From a virus: 37,120 nucleotides of DNA. The notes beneath the pieces are model-generated. The model ran no database searches, was not told the DNA's origin, and was given only the letters and a program-made list of their open reading frames with translations. The position numbers and the translations under genes were made by a program. Below are positions 8,312 to 31,151 of the stretch, piece after piece. The stretch lies in IMG/VR virus record IMGVR_UViG_3300046002_004981, positions 1 to 37,120 of that record, one strand, 5' to 3'. Numbering within the stretch: the first letter of the stretch is position 1; each line of letters starts with the position of its first letter.

Positions 8312-9480
8312 TATTCAAACCCCAAAAACTTAAGCTTTCCTTTTGGCTTTGCTTTTTCTTTGTCAACATCTGCTTGTAATGCCGCCCTATCTTCTGCTGT
8401 AAGGTTTTCTGGGTGCTTCATATCTATTTGTATATTTTCATTTCCAACTGGCATTGTGCGTTGTTGGAGATACTCTGGAGGAATACCAACTTGCAATCCC
8501 CTTATGGCGGTTTCTCTTGCGTTTTGTTTATTAGCTAATGTCTCGTCATCGTCATTTGGCTGTGGGAAATATTGCTTTTGTGTGTTTTCAAATTCTTGAT
8601 CGCTTATAGATGCCCCAGTCTCGGGCCTTAAAACGGAATTAGCAAATTGCCTTTGCGCTTGTATTATTTGCCTATCGTTTGCAGAAATAGCTTTGTTAGC
8701 AGCCCATCCAGCTAACGGAACACCTTCCATGCTTTTTGCTATTGTTGTTGCATTTGGGTCGTAATCTTTGCCTATCTTTGTAATAACATCATTTGCTTCA
8801 ATCATTCTCGTGCTGAAATCAATATTTTTTCGTTGCCAATCAAGCAATGGCTTCGGCTCTGCCTGTTTTGGTGGCAATCCAGTCTGACGAGTTTCTCCTG
8901 TTTGCGGATTAACTTGATAAGCGCCGTCTTGCGCTGAACTCCAACTAACAGGTGGTCTTGTTGCATCAGCTCTAGCGCCTGCTAATTCTAAATTCATGGG
9001 GAATAAAGCTTTTTGTTTAGCTACCTCGTAATCAATATCCGCTTGGCTATGCTTCGGCTCGCTATCATAAGCCGCCAGAGTCCTTATCGCATTAATATCA
9101 ATAGGCGTATTAGGATCGTAGGGTTTGCCAAACACTTTGGATAAATGAGGTGCGTAAATATGCCCGACTTGATTAACAATCTGATCGTATTCTGGCGAAC
9201 CCTCCGGTATGCCCTGTGCTTTAGCTTGGGCATTTGATTGCGTTAAAACCGCTTTAGCCATGCCACTGCCGAGCATGACCTTTTGTTGGGTTTGCTTAGT
9301 TTCACCACTATCAAGCTCAAGCTGATCAGTTCTATCTTTCATGGCAAAGTCTTGCGGCGCACGTTGTAGCTTAAGCGCGTTCATTTGATTTTGTTGCACG
9401 CTGCTATTGGCATCAGCATATTCTTTCATGTAATCAGCCATTGATCTGGCTTGTAATACGGGTGGCATTGGGATGTCCAT
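8311..9480 (-). CDS. Internal virion / ejection-block protein (389 aa)
   Basis: A mostly helical, glutamine- and alanine-rich protein with a low-hydrophobicity N-terminal half. A conserved-looking C-terminal segment reads LRPETGASISDQEFENTQKQYFPQ, then GIPPEYLQQR. Segments of this type occur in structural proteins of BPP-1/BcepC6B-like podophages, but I cannot give a function. It lies between the repeat-rich ejection protein and the 622-aa protein, with TAATG coupling to the latter. A role as an internal head or DNA-ejection component is inferred from position. Confidence 0.65.
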   Translation of the reverse strand: MDIPMPPVLQARSMADYMKEYADANSSVQQNQMNALKLQRAPQDFAMKDRTDQLELDSGETKQTQQKVMLGSGMAKAVLTQSNAQAKAQGIPEGSPEYDQIVNQVGHIYAPHLSKVFGKPYDPNTPIDINAIRTLAAYDSEPKHSQADIDYEVAKQKALFPMNLELAGARADATRPPVSWSSAQDGAYQVNPQTGETRQTGLPPKQAEPKPLLDWQRKNIDFSTRMIEANDVITKIGKDYDPNATTIAKSMEGVPLAGWAANKAISANDRQIIQAQRQFANSVLRPETGASISDQEFENTQKQYFPQPNDDDETLANKQNARETAIRGLQVGIPPEYLQQRTMPVGNENIQIDMKHPENLTAEDRAALQADVDKEKAKPKGKLKFLGFE

Positions 9481-26435: not shown

Positions 26436-26442
26436 AATTTTG

Positions 26443-26673
26443 AATTGACATGAATTGACATGAATTGGCAGACTTTTAATGTCAATTTAACCTGTTGATT
26501 AATATAATAAATACACCTATATATATTGAATTGACAAATATATAGCGATACATACCTACCTTGTAATACATTAGGGTATGTATCGGAAGCCTTGCCAATT
26601 TGCCAATTCACCTGTTTTCTTTTTAAAATCATCATGTTAAATTGACATTTTTAATTGTCAATTCATGTCAATT
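26443..26673. repeat. Iteron-like array, candidate replication origin
   Basis: The 8-mer AATTGACA occurs four times on plus (26443, 26453, 26529, 26640) and three times on minus (plus-strand coordinates 26480, 26656, 26666). G-for-A variants lie at 26463, 26593 and 26601, with a near copy at 26682. Three copies stand in 10-bp tandem at 26441-26470. The stretch is very AT-rich and surrounds an 11-bp dyad. It begins inside the last codons of the primase-helicase gene. Iterons, a dyad and AT-rich DNA beside the replication protein resemble an origin. Operators for a regulator remain possible. Confidence 0.55.
26546..26585. repeat. 11-bp perfect inverted repeat inside the iteron region
   Basis: CGATACATACC at 26546-26556 is the exact reverse complement of 26575-26585, with an 18-nt spacer. 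There is no T run, so it is not a terminator. It could be a protein-bound dyad or an extruded hairpin used for primase entry. Confidence 0.75.
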
Positions 26674-28948
26674 CATCATTTAATTGACTATTTATAGCCT
26701 TAAAGACGTTTCTTGGCTTACCTGGCTTCCCTTCACGAGTATTCACCAAAGCGATTAATTCAGCTTTTAGTAGTGACTGGATGACGTCGCCAAGATCTTT
26801 TTCTTTAAACTTGGTAAACGGTGCAACCCGATTCATGTCACGTTCTGAATAACCCGCTTTCTTACTTCTAATGGCTGCCAAAACATCATGCTTGGCTTGT
26901 TGAAATTCTGATCCAACAATGTTCTCCTTAACATCAGTCACAACAGCCAAAGATAACTTATCCATATAACGCACAGCAGTAGTGGCGTGGTCTTCTTCAA
27001 TGGTGGTAGCAAAAGGATTAACAGCCAAAGCAACCGCTAAGGACACCCGGCCCGCAAACTCGCCATAACGACCCACGCAACCTTCTAAGCCTTCTGCTTC
27101 CAGTTCGTTCATCAAGGCCACCATCTTTTCAGCAAAAGCAGTCAGTCTGTTTTCAGCACCTTCTGTTTCATCAATGACAATCACTTCCCCGGTTACTTCG
27201 GGAGAGTTTAAAGAGCAAGAGGCAGGATCATGTTCCATTGCTCGATCATTAATGGCTTTTGACCAGTTGATGATTGAAAGCGGTACAGATAAAGGCCGTG
27301 TTTTTTTAGGTGCAATACGGGGAAGATTGCTTTTACAAGTAATAAAGCGACCAAAGAAACCATCCTTAATCATCTCAACGGTCAGGTTGGAATAAAACGT
27401 GGATGGTGTTGTCATTGATTGAATGGTAATGGCGGGGTTTTTAATGGTTAACGAACCCTCAGTATTTTTTGAAGATCCCAGTGTTGAATAATTCTTTGAG
27501 CGGATATCACCACCTAAACGACCAATACACTCCATTAACGTCGTATTGGCTGACTTACCAATAAAATTACTTTTACTGTTTGAGGCTTCCAAATACATAC
27601 CCAACTCATCAATCACTGAGATGTGCACTGGCTTAGTGTTTAACGTCGATAACACAGCACCGGCTGATGTGTAACCATCACCGGCTAAAAGCTTTTCCAT
27701 ATCACAGGCTTTCAGCACATCCTCAGTAACCCGTTTAATATGTTCTTTACCACAGGCTGTCGGTGCAATGTTTAAAAAGTACAAGGAGGCATAATCATCA
27801 AAGACGGTTTTAAAGCGACGACCCAACATGACTGACACAATGCCAAGCGCTGTTTGAGCTGCAAAGGCCGGTTGTGGAATCTTAGCGGTTGCATTGTAAT
27901 AGTCTTGAATCTCACCTAATACACCAGGGAGCCGTTCGACTTCACTGTAAATGGGTGCATCTGGTTTGATGTACAGTAATTCAGGTGACCAAGTGATTTG
28001 ACTAATCACCGGCTTATTAACCCAACCGGCCTCCATTGCCATTTTAAAAATGGTTGCTTTGGTAATACCGGATAGGCCTTTACGCTTAAAACTGTTCCAG
28101 ACTTTGAGCTGGTCTTTGTAATCGTATTTATCAGAGCGTTGTGACCAATCGCACCACAAATCAAAACCAGCACCACCGCCTAAATCATTCTGTAGAGCCA
28201 TTCCGACTTGATACCAAATATCACGATCAGACGCATCAATAAAAAATAAAGCGGCTTCCAGCTCGATTAATTCACCATCCGATAAAGGAATGGCAGGACT
28301 GACGGCATCATCAGCTAAGACCATCTTAGTGCGCGCTAAATCGCGCAACCAATCCGGTAATGGAGATGCAATCGCACCATTTAAAGGATCACTAGATGCT
28401 TCCCATGTATACGAGCCACCACTAAAATGATTAGAGGGTTCAAGGACAATATAACCATTTGCCTTAACATCAATGCCTTTACCCAATTTACCAGGTAAGG
28501 TTTGATTAGCCGGTAATTGAAAGATTCGATGCTCACCACCACCTCCGGTATATTGCAAAACATCTGATAATAAAGGTCCGTGTTCGGCTTCTATCGTTTC
28601 AATGGTATACATGCCACCATTACGAGGATCTATATCAATGGCACATAAATTGGATGAAGCTAAATGAGCCGCTATATTGGCTTCTGGATAACTACCCCAC
28701 CACTTCTTAATCAGTGCGCGGTCAGTGGTTGCATTGTCTTGTCCTTTAGGCGCTAACTTATGCAGAGGATGCTTGCCTGAATTACTGCAATCTAATTCAC
28801 CGCACGCACATTGACCATCTGCCTTGACATTCCAAAGTGGGAAAATATGCCAGCCTAAAGCCGCATAACGCAACGCATAGCCCAGCCTTGATTCAAGATC
28901 AATGGTTGGCTCTGCATTACTTACGACTAGCTCTATTTGTGCTGACAT
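26663..28948 (-). CDS. Primase-polymerase / helicase replication protein
   Basis: A 761-aa replication initiator. The N-terminal AEP Prim-Pol domain spans about 22-205. It includes a cysteine knuckle (CACGELDC, 47-54), catalytic D105-x-D107 in CAIDIDPRNGG, H140 in GGGEHRIF and GIDVKANGY (D160). A PriCT_2-like part follows at about 226-308. The helicase-like half has a degenerate P-loop APTACGKEH (395-403), where the usual Ser/Thr is Glu, and Walker B VIDELG (446-450). The last codons lie within iterons. It occupies the place of lambda O, after the Cro- and CII-position genes. Confidence 0.88.
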   Translation of the reverse strand: MSAQIELVVSNAEPTIDLESRLGYALRYAALGWHIFPLWNVKADGQCACGELDCSNSGKHPLHKLAPKGQDNATTDRALIKKWWGSYPEANIAAHLASSNLCAIDIDPRNGGMYTIETIEAEHGPLLSDVLQYTGGGGEHRIFQLPANQTLPGKLGKGIDVKANGYIVLEPSNHFSGGSYTWEASSDPLNGAIASPLPDWLRDLARTKMVLADDAVSPAIPLSDGELIELEAALFFIDASDRDIWYQVGMALQNDLGGGAGFDLWCDWSQRSDKYDYKDQLKVWNSFKRKGLSGITKATIFKMAMEAGWVNKPVISQITWSPELLYIKPDAPIYSEVERLPGVLGEIQDYYNATAKIPQPAFAAQTALGIVSVMLGRRFKTVFDDYASLYFLNIAPTACGKEHIKRVTEDVLKACDMEKLLAGDGYTSAGAVLSTLNTKPVHISVIDELGMYLEASNSKSNFIGKSANTTLMECIGRLGGDIRSKNYSTLGSSKNTEGSLTIKNPAITIQSMTTPSTFYSNLTVEMIKDGFFGRFITCKSNLPRIAPKKTRPLSVPLSIINWSKAINDRAMEHDPASCSLNSPEVTGEVIVIDETEGAENRLTAFAEKMVALMNELEAEGLEGCVGRYGEFAGRVSLAVALAVNPFATTIEEDHATTAVRYMDKLSLAVVTDVKENIVGSEFQQAKHDVLAAIRSKKAGYSERDMNRVAPFTKFKEKDLGDVIQSLLKAELIALVNTREGKPGKPRNVFKAINSQLNDELT

Positions 28949-29259: not shown

Positions 29260-29454
29260 TTATTTACCAAATATGTCGGGGCGGATTTCTTCGCGGGGTA
29301 TGCCGGTTAGTTTTGATATTTCACTCGCTCTTTTAGGAGGTATCTTTGCTTTTCCTCCAAGCCACTCAGATACAACTGGCTGGCTGACACCAATAGCGCA
29401 ACTAAGATCAGTTTGATTCTTGAAGTGAGTGCTTATTCTTTCTAAAACGTCCAT
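29260..29454 (-). CDS. Cro-like / YdaS-type HTH repressor
   Basis: A 64-aa helix-turn-helix protein: FKNQTDLSCAIGVSQPVVSEW, then LGGKAKIPPKRASEISKLTGIPREEIRPDIFG. The PPKRASEI...PREEIRPDIF end is typical of Cro/YdaS-type small repressors. It is divergent from the CI-like gene and is the first gene of the leftward early promoter at 29486-29513. It probably competes for the shared palindromic operators and favours lytic growth. Confidence 0.82.
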   Translation of the reverse strand: MDVLERISTHFKNQTDLSCAIGVSQPVVSEWLGGKAKIPPKRASEISKLTGIPREEIRPDIFGK

Positions 29455-29485
29455 CTAATTTCCGAGGCGTAAAATGTTAAATTCG

Positions 29486-29513
29486 ATTATAGGCTATTCC
29501 TATAAAAAATCAA
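29486..29513 (-). promoter_or_regulatory. Leftward early promoter (PR-like)
   Basis: On the minus strand TTGATT (29513-29508), a 16-bp spacer and TATAAT (29491-29486). The box sequences and spacing equal those of the rightward promoter at 31125-31152, and both are overlapped by the same palindrome. It drives the Cro-like gene and replication genes. Confidence 0.82.
29487..29505. promoter_or_regulatory. Repressor operator, switch region
   Basis: A perfect 19-bp palindrome: TTATAGG-N5-CCTATAA. It covers the -10 and spacer of the leftward promoter. A second, weak site with only one good half (29511-29517) is centred 24 bp away, over the -35. The plus-strand TATAAA (29501-29506) may be the -10 of the repressor's own promoter, so occupancy would control both genes. 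Confidence 0.8.
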
Positions 29514-29551
29514 TAGGTGATTTCTGTTTTGAAAATATAGAAAATGACTAT

Positions 29552-30241
29552 ATGAATACAAACATGAAATATCCTGATTTTGCTAGACGCCTAAGCCAGG
29601 CATGGAAGGAATGTGAAGAAGCGCCTGAAAAGCAAACACCACTTGCTAAATGGCTTGGCTTCTCACAACCAACTGTTAATGATTGGCTAAATGGTAAGGG
29701 CTTGCCGTCGCTTGATACAGCAATAAGACTGGCTATAAAGTTTAATGTTTGTGCTGAATGGCTAGTGACAGGGCGTGGACCAAAATATCCTGGTGAAGAA
29801 GTAAGCCTACAACACTATATAAACGTCGCTGACTTAACTGATGATCAGCGTGCATTAATTAATCAAATGGTGGCGCAATTTACACCCAAAATAACTGAAA
29901 ATAACCCAAATAAAACCTTGACAACCCCAATTGAAAATGTGGGGGGGGGGGGGGTAAACCTGCCAGTCCAACAGCCGCAAGCCCACGATAGACGCGTAAG
30001 CGACCATGACAGCCGGTTAATGCTAAAAGAAATGGCTATCGAGCAGGAACGCTGTGTAATGGAACGTCATCAAGAGGCTTTAATGATTAATGAGCGCTAC
30101 ATTGGTTTGATAAAAGAGAGCTGTAAAAATAATGCCTGCTACTGCGAGCCTCCATGCAAAGATGCCAACGATCACTCACGGACGATGAGTTTTAAGAGTC
30201 TTTTAAGCAGTGCGCAGAATGATAGAAATAAAGAGAGTTGA
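29552..30241 (+). CDS. CI-like repressor with a poly-G tract between its domains
   Basis: A 229-aa product from ATG 29552 (MNTNMKYPDFARRLSQ); ATG 29564 is also possible. ATG 29474 is excluded because it precedes the likely repressor promoter and lies upstream of the operator. The N-terminal HTH domain has TPLAKWLGFSQPTVNDWLNG, then LAIKFNVCAEWLVTGRGP, the form of phage lambdoid repressors. The C-terminal half is charged and helical with a cysteine group (CKNNACYCEPPC) and lacks the S24 peptidase motifs, so RecA-driven self-cleavage is not evident. Between the halves lie 14 Gs (29941-29954). One G fewer makes an immediate TAA, and one more gives a stop after about 11 codons. Confidence 0.82.
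   Translation: MNTNMKYPDFARRLSQAWKECEEAPEKQTPLAKWLGFSQPTVNDWLNGKGLPSLDTAIRLAIKFNVCAEWLVTGRGPKYPGEEVSLQHYINVADLTDDQRALINQMVAQFTPKITENNPNKTLTTPIENVGGGGVNLPVQQPQAHDRRVSDHDSRLMLKEMAIEQERCVMERHQEALMINERYIGLIKESCKNNACYCEPPCKDANDHSRTMSFKSLLSSAQNDRNKES
29941..29954 (+). repeat. Poly-G(14) homopolymer inside the repressor gene
   Basis: Fourteen consecutive Gs encode the end of a Val codon, four Gly codons and the start of the next Val. The length is 3n+2, so the full frame is open only at 11, 14, 17 and so on. At 13 the next codon is TAA. Such tracts slip readily during replication and are also prone to sequencing error. Confidence 0.9.
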
Positions 30242-30303: not shown

Positions 30304-30486
30304 ATGAAACATAATTTTGTTAAGAATTTGATAGATGGAGCCAAGTCTGTTTTAGTTATTTTTTATAGCGATGACTATCAGTACCCAGATAAAAAAGGAT
30401 TTTCAAAAGATATTGGAAAAATATCAGGCGATTTCAAAACCCTTGGCAGGGATATGAGGCGATCTATTAATAAATATCATGGGTAG
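30304..30486 (+). CDS. 60-aa partner protein of the DUF2335 module
   Basis: A short protein: MKHNFVKNLIDGAKSVLVIF, then PDKKGFSKDIGKISGDFKTLGRDMRRSINKYHG. The pattern GF-x-KD-x-x-x-ISGDF-x-x-x-G-x-DMRR is shared by small proteins encoded directly before DUF2335 genes in other phages and genomes. It overlaps its partner by 8 nt. GGGGAAAAT precedes ATG 30304. Expression from the repressor side suggests a role in lysogeny, such as exclusion of other phages, but this is inference. Confidence 0.68.
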   Translation: MKHNFVKNLIDGAKSVLVIFYSDDYQYPDKKGFSKDIGKISGDFKTLGRDMRRSINKYHG

Positions 30487-30856
30487 ATCAACCACCGCCA
30501 AAGTTAGCCGAAGAAATGGCGACTTAACTCTACAACAACATGATTCAGATAGTCCTATCCTTCCAGTTGCCCAGCTTGAACAGCTTAGTATTTTTAAGCC
30601 AGACGCAGTTGATTGGGTAATTCAACAAACACAAATAGAAGCAGAGTACCGAAGAAAAGAAACATTAAGGCTAAACTCTTTTGTTTTAATTGAAAGAATA
30701 ATAGGCCAAGTATGCGCTTTAATTATCGGGATTACTGGTATTATCAGCGGTTCTTATGTAGCCTTAAATGGACAGCCTGGCGCTGGTGGAACAATAGCAA
30801 CAGTAGCATTAACTGGATTGGCAGTAGTTTTTTTAACAGGCAGGACAAAAAAATAA
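30479..30856 (+). CDS. DUF2335-type two-span membrane protein
   Basis: A 125-aa protein. The N-terminal cytoplasmic part has LPVAQLEQLSIFKPDAVDWVIQ, then AEYRRKETLR, the family pattern before the membrane. Two spans follow at about 72-93 (RIIGQVCALIIGITGIISGS) and 103-121 (TIATVALTGLAVVFLTG). This matches DUF2335, a predicted membrane family of unknown function. It is co-translated with the 60-aa protein, lies on the repressor transcript side and is closed by terminators. A superinfection-exclusion or anti-phage role is plausible but unproved. Confidence 0.72.
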   Translation: MGRSTTAKVSRRNGDLTLQQHDSDSPILPVAQLEQLSIFKPDAVDWVIQQTQIEAEYRRKETLRLNSFVLIERIIGQVCALIIGITGIISGSYVALNGQPGAGGTIATVALTGLAVVFLTGRTKK

Positions 30857-31108: not shown

Positions 31109-31151
31109 ATATAGGAATTGCCTATTGATTAATTATAGGTAAAGCCTATAA
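31109..31151. promoter_or_regulatory. Operator pair at the rightward early promoter
   Basis: Two copies of the repressor palindrome are centred 24 bp apart. 31133-31151 is a perfect TTATAGG-N5-CCTATAA, and 31109-31127 (ATATAGG-N5-CCTATTG) is weaker. The perfect copy lies over the spacer and -10 of the promoter and the weak one touches the -35, as at 29487-29517. One repressor can thus shut both early operons. Confidence 0.82.

Follow-up and report, generated by a model that had tools for sequence, protein, structure and literature searches.

The DNA analysed here (the window, 37,120 bp) is the whole of IMG/VR record IMGVR_UViG_3300046002_004981. It belongs to an uncultivated temperate P22-like podovirus that encodes a P22-like portal, an integrase and a Prim-Pol primase, and the gene of interest is its lysogeny repressor. 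This CI-like gene lies on the plus strand at 29552..30241 and specifies 229 amino acids from an ATG at 29552; the product carries a CI/Cro-class HTH DNA-binding domain (Pfam HTH_3, E 4.7e-7, above its cut-off) and matches the PHROG transcriptional repressors. The longest open reading frame begins further upstream (29474-30241) and stays open through a tract of consecutive Gs, reading ...TPIENVGGGGVNLP.... The ATG at 29552 is the likely start because operators occupy part of the region upstream of it, and it is homologous to the start in a related contig, L002. A divergent Cro/YdaS-like HTH gene (Pfam YdaS 4.4e-12, P22_Cro 5.1e-7) occupies the minus strand at 29260..29454.

The repressor has two halves joined by a linker. 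The DNA-binding half (29552..29890), made up of the HTH and one following helix, has a different HTH in its place in one relative, L004. It is followed by conserved linker DNA (29903..29940), the G tract (29941..29954) and a C-terminal tail (29955..30241), all on the plus strand, the tail including a predicted long helix and a Cys cluster, CKNNACYCEPPC. In a structure model with a mean pLDDT of 60, residues 8-73 form the HTH, 97-110 a helix and 150-193 the long helix, while residues 111-149, which contain the glycines encoded by the tract, are unstructured. On this low-confidence model the G tract would sit in an unstructured linker. The initial annotation had seen no S24 self-cleavage motif, and a domain search of the repressor likewise found no S24 peptidase domain, the mark of the autocleaving, inducible subclass. 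Phage_CI_repr scores above its cut-off in the relatives L009, L022 and L051.

The palindrome TATAGG-N5-CCTATA, with up to two mismatches allowed, occurs at only four sites in the window. Two of these flank the repressor start, opposite the Cro/YdaS-like gene: a predicted operator upstream of the repressor (TATAGGCTATTCCTATA, 29488..29504) and an operator-like site with two mismatches at its start (TATAGAAAATGACTATA, 29536..29552). The remaining predicted operators, TATAGGAATTGCCTATT (31110..31126) and TATAGGTAAAGCCTATA (31134..31150), lie 24 bp apart, after a terminator-like hairpin and before a rightward gene block, and this pair likely adjoins the early promoter. A spacing of 24 bp recurs in several immunity types. 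The locus has, as judged from sequence alone, the divergent Cro-like gene and the operators at both its own and the early promoter that would be expected of a lysogeny repressor. The assignment of that role through cognate operators at two control regions is well supported, while repression itself is inferred, with no assay.

A close relative (L007) has flanking DNA about 96% identical to the window, a different HTH half, and sites of the form AATACTATAGTATT at the matching places, its early-promoter operator copies having been swapped in a stretch of DNA that otherwise remains closely similar. The swap of operators with the HTH half between close relatives thus involves two places about 1.6 kb apart (29488-29552 and 31110-31150). 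Other HTH classes have sites of their own, TATACG-N4-CGTATA in L016, L023, L032 and L057 and ATACATTGATGTAT in L045. Operators and HTH half vary in concert, which is what immunity types should do.

Downstream of the repressor and on the same strand are a small gene (30304..30486), conserved in L004 and L015, and a membrane protein gene of the moron class (30479..30856; PHROG 3996, E 8.2e-19), which is possibly cotranscribed with the repressor. By inference, early stops in the repressor might affect the genes downstream, the membrane protein gene among them. Both small genes (30304-30856) recur in L015, which is otherwise a different kind of phage. Elsewhere in the window, the end of the primase gene contains direct repeats of TGAATTGACA (26441-26467) and, some 200 bp away, inverted copies of them (26656-26676, reverse complement TGTCAATTCA).

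The G tract itself comprises the last base of a GTG codon, four GGG codons and the first base of GTA. Its position, 14 Gs at 29941-29954 in frame inside an HTH repressor gene, is exactly as the initial annotation had given it. No other run of at least eight G or C exists in the 37-kb window, where the second-longest G run is six; the seven overlapping matches to G8 compare with a mean of 0.24 and a maximum of 2 in dinucleotide shuffles. Since GGG makes up only 11% of the glycine codons in the window, four consecutive GGG codons after GTG have a probability of about 3e-5. The full repressor frame is available only at 3n+2 Gs, and 13 Gs would bring an immediate TAA, both as had been proposed from the sequence. 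The further claim that 15 Gs lead to a TAG also stands (the frame reads GKPASPTAASPR and then TAG), although the stop comes after 12 codons and not about 11. The C-terminal tail is lost in the -1 and the +1 frame alike.

About 25 further IMG/VR contigs with related repressors were collected by searches independent of the tract and by two DNA-pattern scans. In these repressors the HTH halves and the tails are of several kinds and meet at a single conserved, tract-bearing linker. Many of the alleles came from a DNA pattern that requires at least 9 G, but tract-blind scans agree with it. Searches at the protein level, with the repressor or with its tail as query, take no account of the tract; they brought up five contigs that have 11-14 G (L002, L003, L004, L009/L061 and L062), as well as L063, which is truncated within a run of at least 17 G, L064, which begins just after the linker, and L065, which has tandem repeats at the linker. 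Scanning with an HTH half of an unrelated kind gave nine contigs; eight were already known and have at least 10 G, and the ninth stops some 50 bp before reaching the tract. The initial annotation had held that a switch would be refuted by homologues whose linker lacks a G run altogether, and none emerged among the readable linkers from the tract-independent scans: all have at least 10 G, except that of L065, where non-triplet tandem repeats stand instead. No member of the family, only generic HTH matches, came from scans of genome contigs or from tblastn searches of phages and plasmids. L017 (24 G), L036 and other pattern matches were excluded as unrelated genes or contig-edge artefacts. Two of the related phages have G runs outside the repressor. 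In L060 a 9-G run (9165-9173) lies in a gene resembling a DNA cytosine methyltransferase (GAPHIRQRLYWVA motif), which is possibly a second repeat-switched gene, and in L057 8-G runs are part of a long unit that is duplicated just 3' of the repressor tail, its copies (1575 and 1870) about 295 bp apart.

What these repressors have in common is the linker. Directly before the tract the window reads CTTGACA (29917-29923), ten bases, and AAAATGT (29934-29940), and the consensus CTTGACA-N10-AAAATGT-Gn (as a DNA pattern also CTTGACA-N10-AAAATGTGG) is found, sometimes with a near variant of CTTGACA, in all relatives, while the parts on either side are of several types. CTTGACA was considered as a promoter -35 element and rejected, since the matching -10 would land in the G tract. 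In cross-type pairs the linker DNA is far more similar than the sequence upstream of it; for example, L060 and L032 are 73% identical over 405 aligned bases and 100% over the last 55. The invariant columns among nine proteins fall mostly inside the linker motif KxLT...NVxxGGV. Several HTH classes have tails in common, and tails likewise combine with several HTH classes, so that the linker forms the joint between differing halves.

A comparison of tract length and frame among homologues, as the initial annotation had suggested, revealed that lengths differ between phages and that some break the frame. Both sides of the tract can be read in 18 distinct alleles, which range from 8 (L074) to 14 G. 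In 14 of them the length is 8, 11 or 14 and the frame is kept; the other four are out of frame, with 10 G in L045 and 12 G in L059, L031 and L052. Compared with a chance share of one third, this excess (p = 1.4e-4, the relatedness of alleles being ignored) indicates that the frame is selected, yet broken states exist. The alleles come from related phages and are not independent, and lengths in assemblies may be off by one or two. Contig 27896_89, whose tract of at least 17 G is cut by the contig end, was left out of the count. L045 and L059 are identical over the 450 bp that precede and the 250 bp that follow tracts of 10 and 12 G, respectively. As they are only about 97% identical over their whole overlap, they are different phages, and as both are out of frame, the pair demonstrates a change of length and not a switch between on and off. 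Tract length can also be the same in near-identical phages that come from different samples (14/14 in L026/L040, 11/11 in L042/L009), and no 13- or 15-G twin of any 14-G allele is present among the relatives found. L020 (15 G) and L057 (14 G) were dropped as a length variant, the difference amounting to one substitution five bases from a contig end.

In L065, whose tail is homologous to that of the window repressor, about 11 units of AGCC followed by 8.4 units of CGAGC occupy the same place in the linker, and the frame is open throughout. Neither unit length is a multiple of three, and glycines and G-structures are absent, so the common factor is frame-shifting instability and not G or glycine. 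Though it rests on sequence comparison, this replacement is the strongest indication that frame instability is what is retained. Two contigs (39.5 and 41.8 kb) start and finish inside the tract, and another two stop no more than 30 bp away from it, where 0.10 contigs would be expected over 26 contigs. Mixed tract lengths would cause such breaks, but so, equally, could poor reading of G runs or the presence of one linker in several co-resident phages.

We consider it likely that the linker of this lysogeny repressor houses a conserved hypermutable contingency locus, that is, a site of phase variation whose repeat is under selection; slippage within populations, its reversibility and its effect on repression are inferred. 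A repeat in every readable linker from the tract-blind scans, variation in its length and the existence of frame-breaking alleles lend support to the earlier proposal of a candidate phase-variable repressor switch. The locus has what such a switch calls for: a non-triplet repeat in a coding region, its length setting the frame; retention of that repeat at the linker despite divergence of the surrounding sequence; and lengths that differ between close relatives, in and out of frame, although neither member of the pair with identical flanks is in frame.

Part of this evidence could also be read as the trace of recombination, with HTH halves and tails exchanged at a flexible glycine linker, the G tract travelling along and slippage being incidental. 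The likeness of linker DNA in cross-type pairs and the several combinations of HTH classes and tails do point to a recombination joint, which is compatible with a contingency locus, and both can hold. As a substitute for one it is unlikely, since a glycine linker does not need GGG codons only, a homopolymer of ten or more is costly, out-of-frame alleles exist, and L065 keeps the instability with quite different repeats and without glycines. It is more improbable that sequencing or assembly produced the pattern from a single fixed in-frame length, with odd lengths and contig breaks as errors. G runs are hard to read, and contig 43409_1144 begins with low-quality C/G runs, but errors would not give rise to a tract that is present in many samples at in-frame lengths of 8, 11 and 14, nor do they fit the agreement between near-identical phages from different samples or the lack of 13- and 15-G twins of 14-G alleles. 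The pure error alternative is weakened by these points, in the absence of raw reads.

Long homopolymers also promote slippage in expression, and programmed slippage by RNA polymerase or the ribosome would yield long and short repressors simultaneously from one fixed DNA length, even from 10- or 12-G alleles. We give this very little credence, as the variation in length is present at the DNA level and the tetra- and pentanucleotide repeats of L065 are poor substrates for it, yet good ones for replication slippage. That a DNA or RNA structure regulates the gene is scarcely credible: 11-14 G could, by inference, form a two-tetrad G-quadruplex, but neither the 8-G allele nor the AGCC and CGAGC units of L065 fit such a structure.

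If the repressor is indeed phase variable, slipped-strand mispairing would alter the G count during DNA replication. Genomes with 3n+2 Gs would make a complete repressor with both its DNA-binding half and its tail; any other length would bring a stop codon immediately behind the tract or a few codons later, leaving the DNA-binding half without its tail. The tail may aid oligomerisation or sense a signal, and its loss is inferred to weaken or change repression, a step for which the release of the lytic programme by C1 slippage mutations in a marine phage-plasmid provides a precedent (PMC10090143). The short form, which retains the HTH and one more helix, might still repress, though presumably less well or differently. 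A fraction of genomes would then enter or leave lysogeny randomly and heritably. Many repressors that recognise different operators would share this linker and repeat, recombination having joined their parts at that point. The fuller picture, a transferable hypermutable linker that has been kept through exchanges of HTH halves and tails, was once replaced by another non-triplet repeat, and drives random, heritable switching between lysogeny and lytic growth without SOS, is one that we favour with less assurance.

Regulation and DNA damage are the usual explanations of the lysis-lysogeny decision. A mutational switch conserved in the repressor would, if real, amount to genetic bet-hedging for lysogeny that continually generates both virulent and lysogenic variants, and the shuffling of immunity types (HTH and operators) would be linked to a common switch cassette. 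Such repressor genes may get annotated as broken. The open-licence literature yielded no phase-variable phage repressor beyond that of PMC10090143, and no conserved repeat switch in a phage repressor.

In that study of a marine Roseobacter phage-plasmid, short-repeat indels in a C1-type repressor gave lytic mutants, and the authors suggest a reversible lysis-lysogeny switch (PMC10090143). Slippage in a C1-type repressor releasing the lytic programme is the likeness to the present case. The phage-plasmid repeats are short and ordinary (for instance A5 to A4) and lie within the HTH region or the promoter, whereas here a long conserved repeat occupies a fixed site in the interdomain linker, with natural alleles that keep and break the frame. 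In Campylobacter phages, receptor-binding proteins vary in phase through poly-G tracts (Sorensen et al. 2021, Cell Rep 35:109214; described in the review PMC11868660). The likeness lies in a hypermutable G tract in a phage gene that diversifies the phage population; there the tract is in a receptor-binding gene and affects host range, and here it is in a lysogeny repressor, at a conserved linker common to different repressors. Like other CI-type repressors without S24, the present one has an HTH_3 or Phage_CI_repr half, a divergent Cro-like gene and paired palindromic operators; unlike them, it has a tail of unknown family behind a repeat-bearing linker. There is also a parallel in kind of repeat with the simple-sequence-repeat contingency loci of Neisseria, Haemophilus and Campylobacter, which have non-triplet repeats (poly-G, tetra- and pentanucleotide) in reading frames. 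Those loci are mostly surface and restriction-modification genes; what would be new here is the placing of repeat-driven phase variation, itself known, in a phage immunity repressor.
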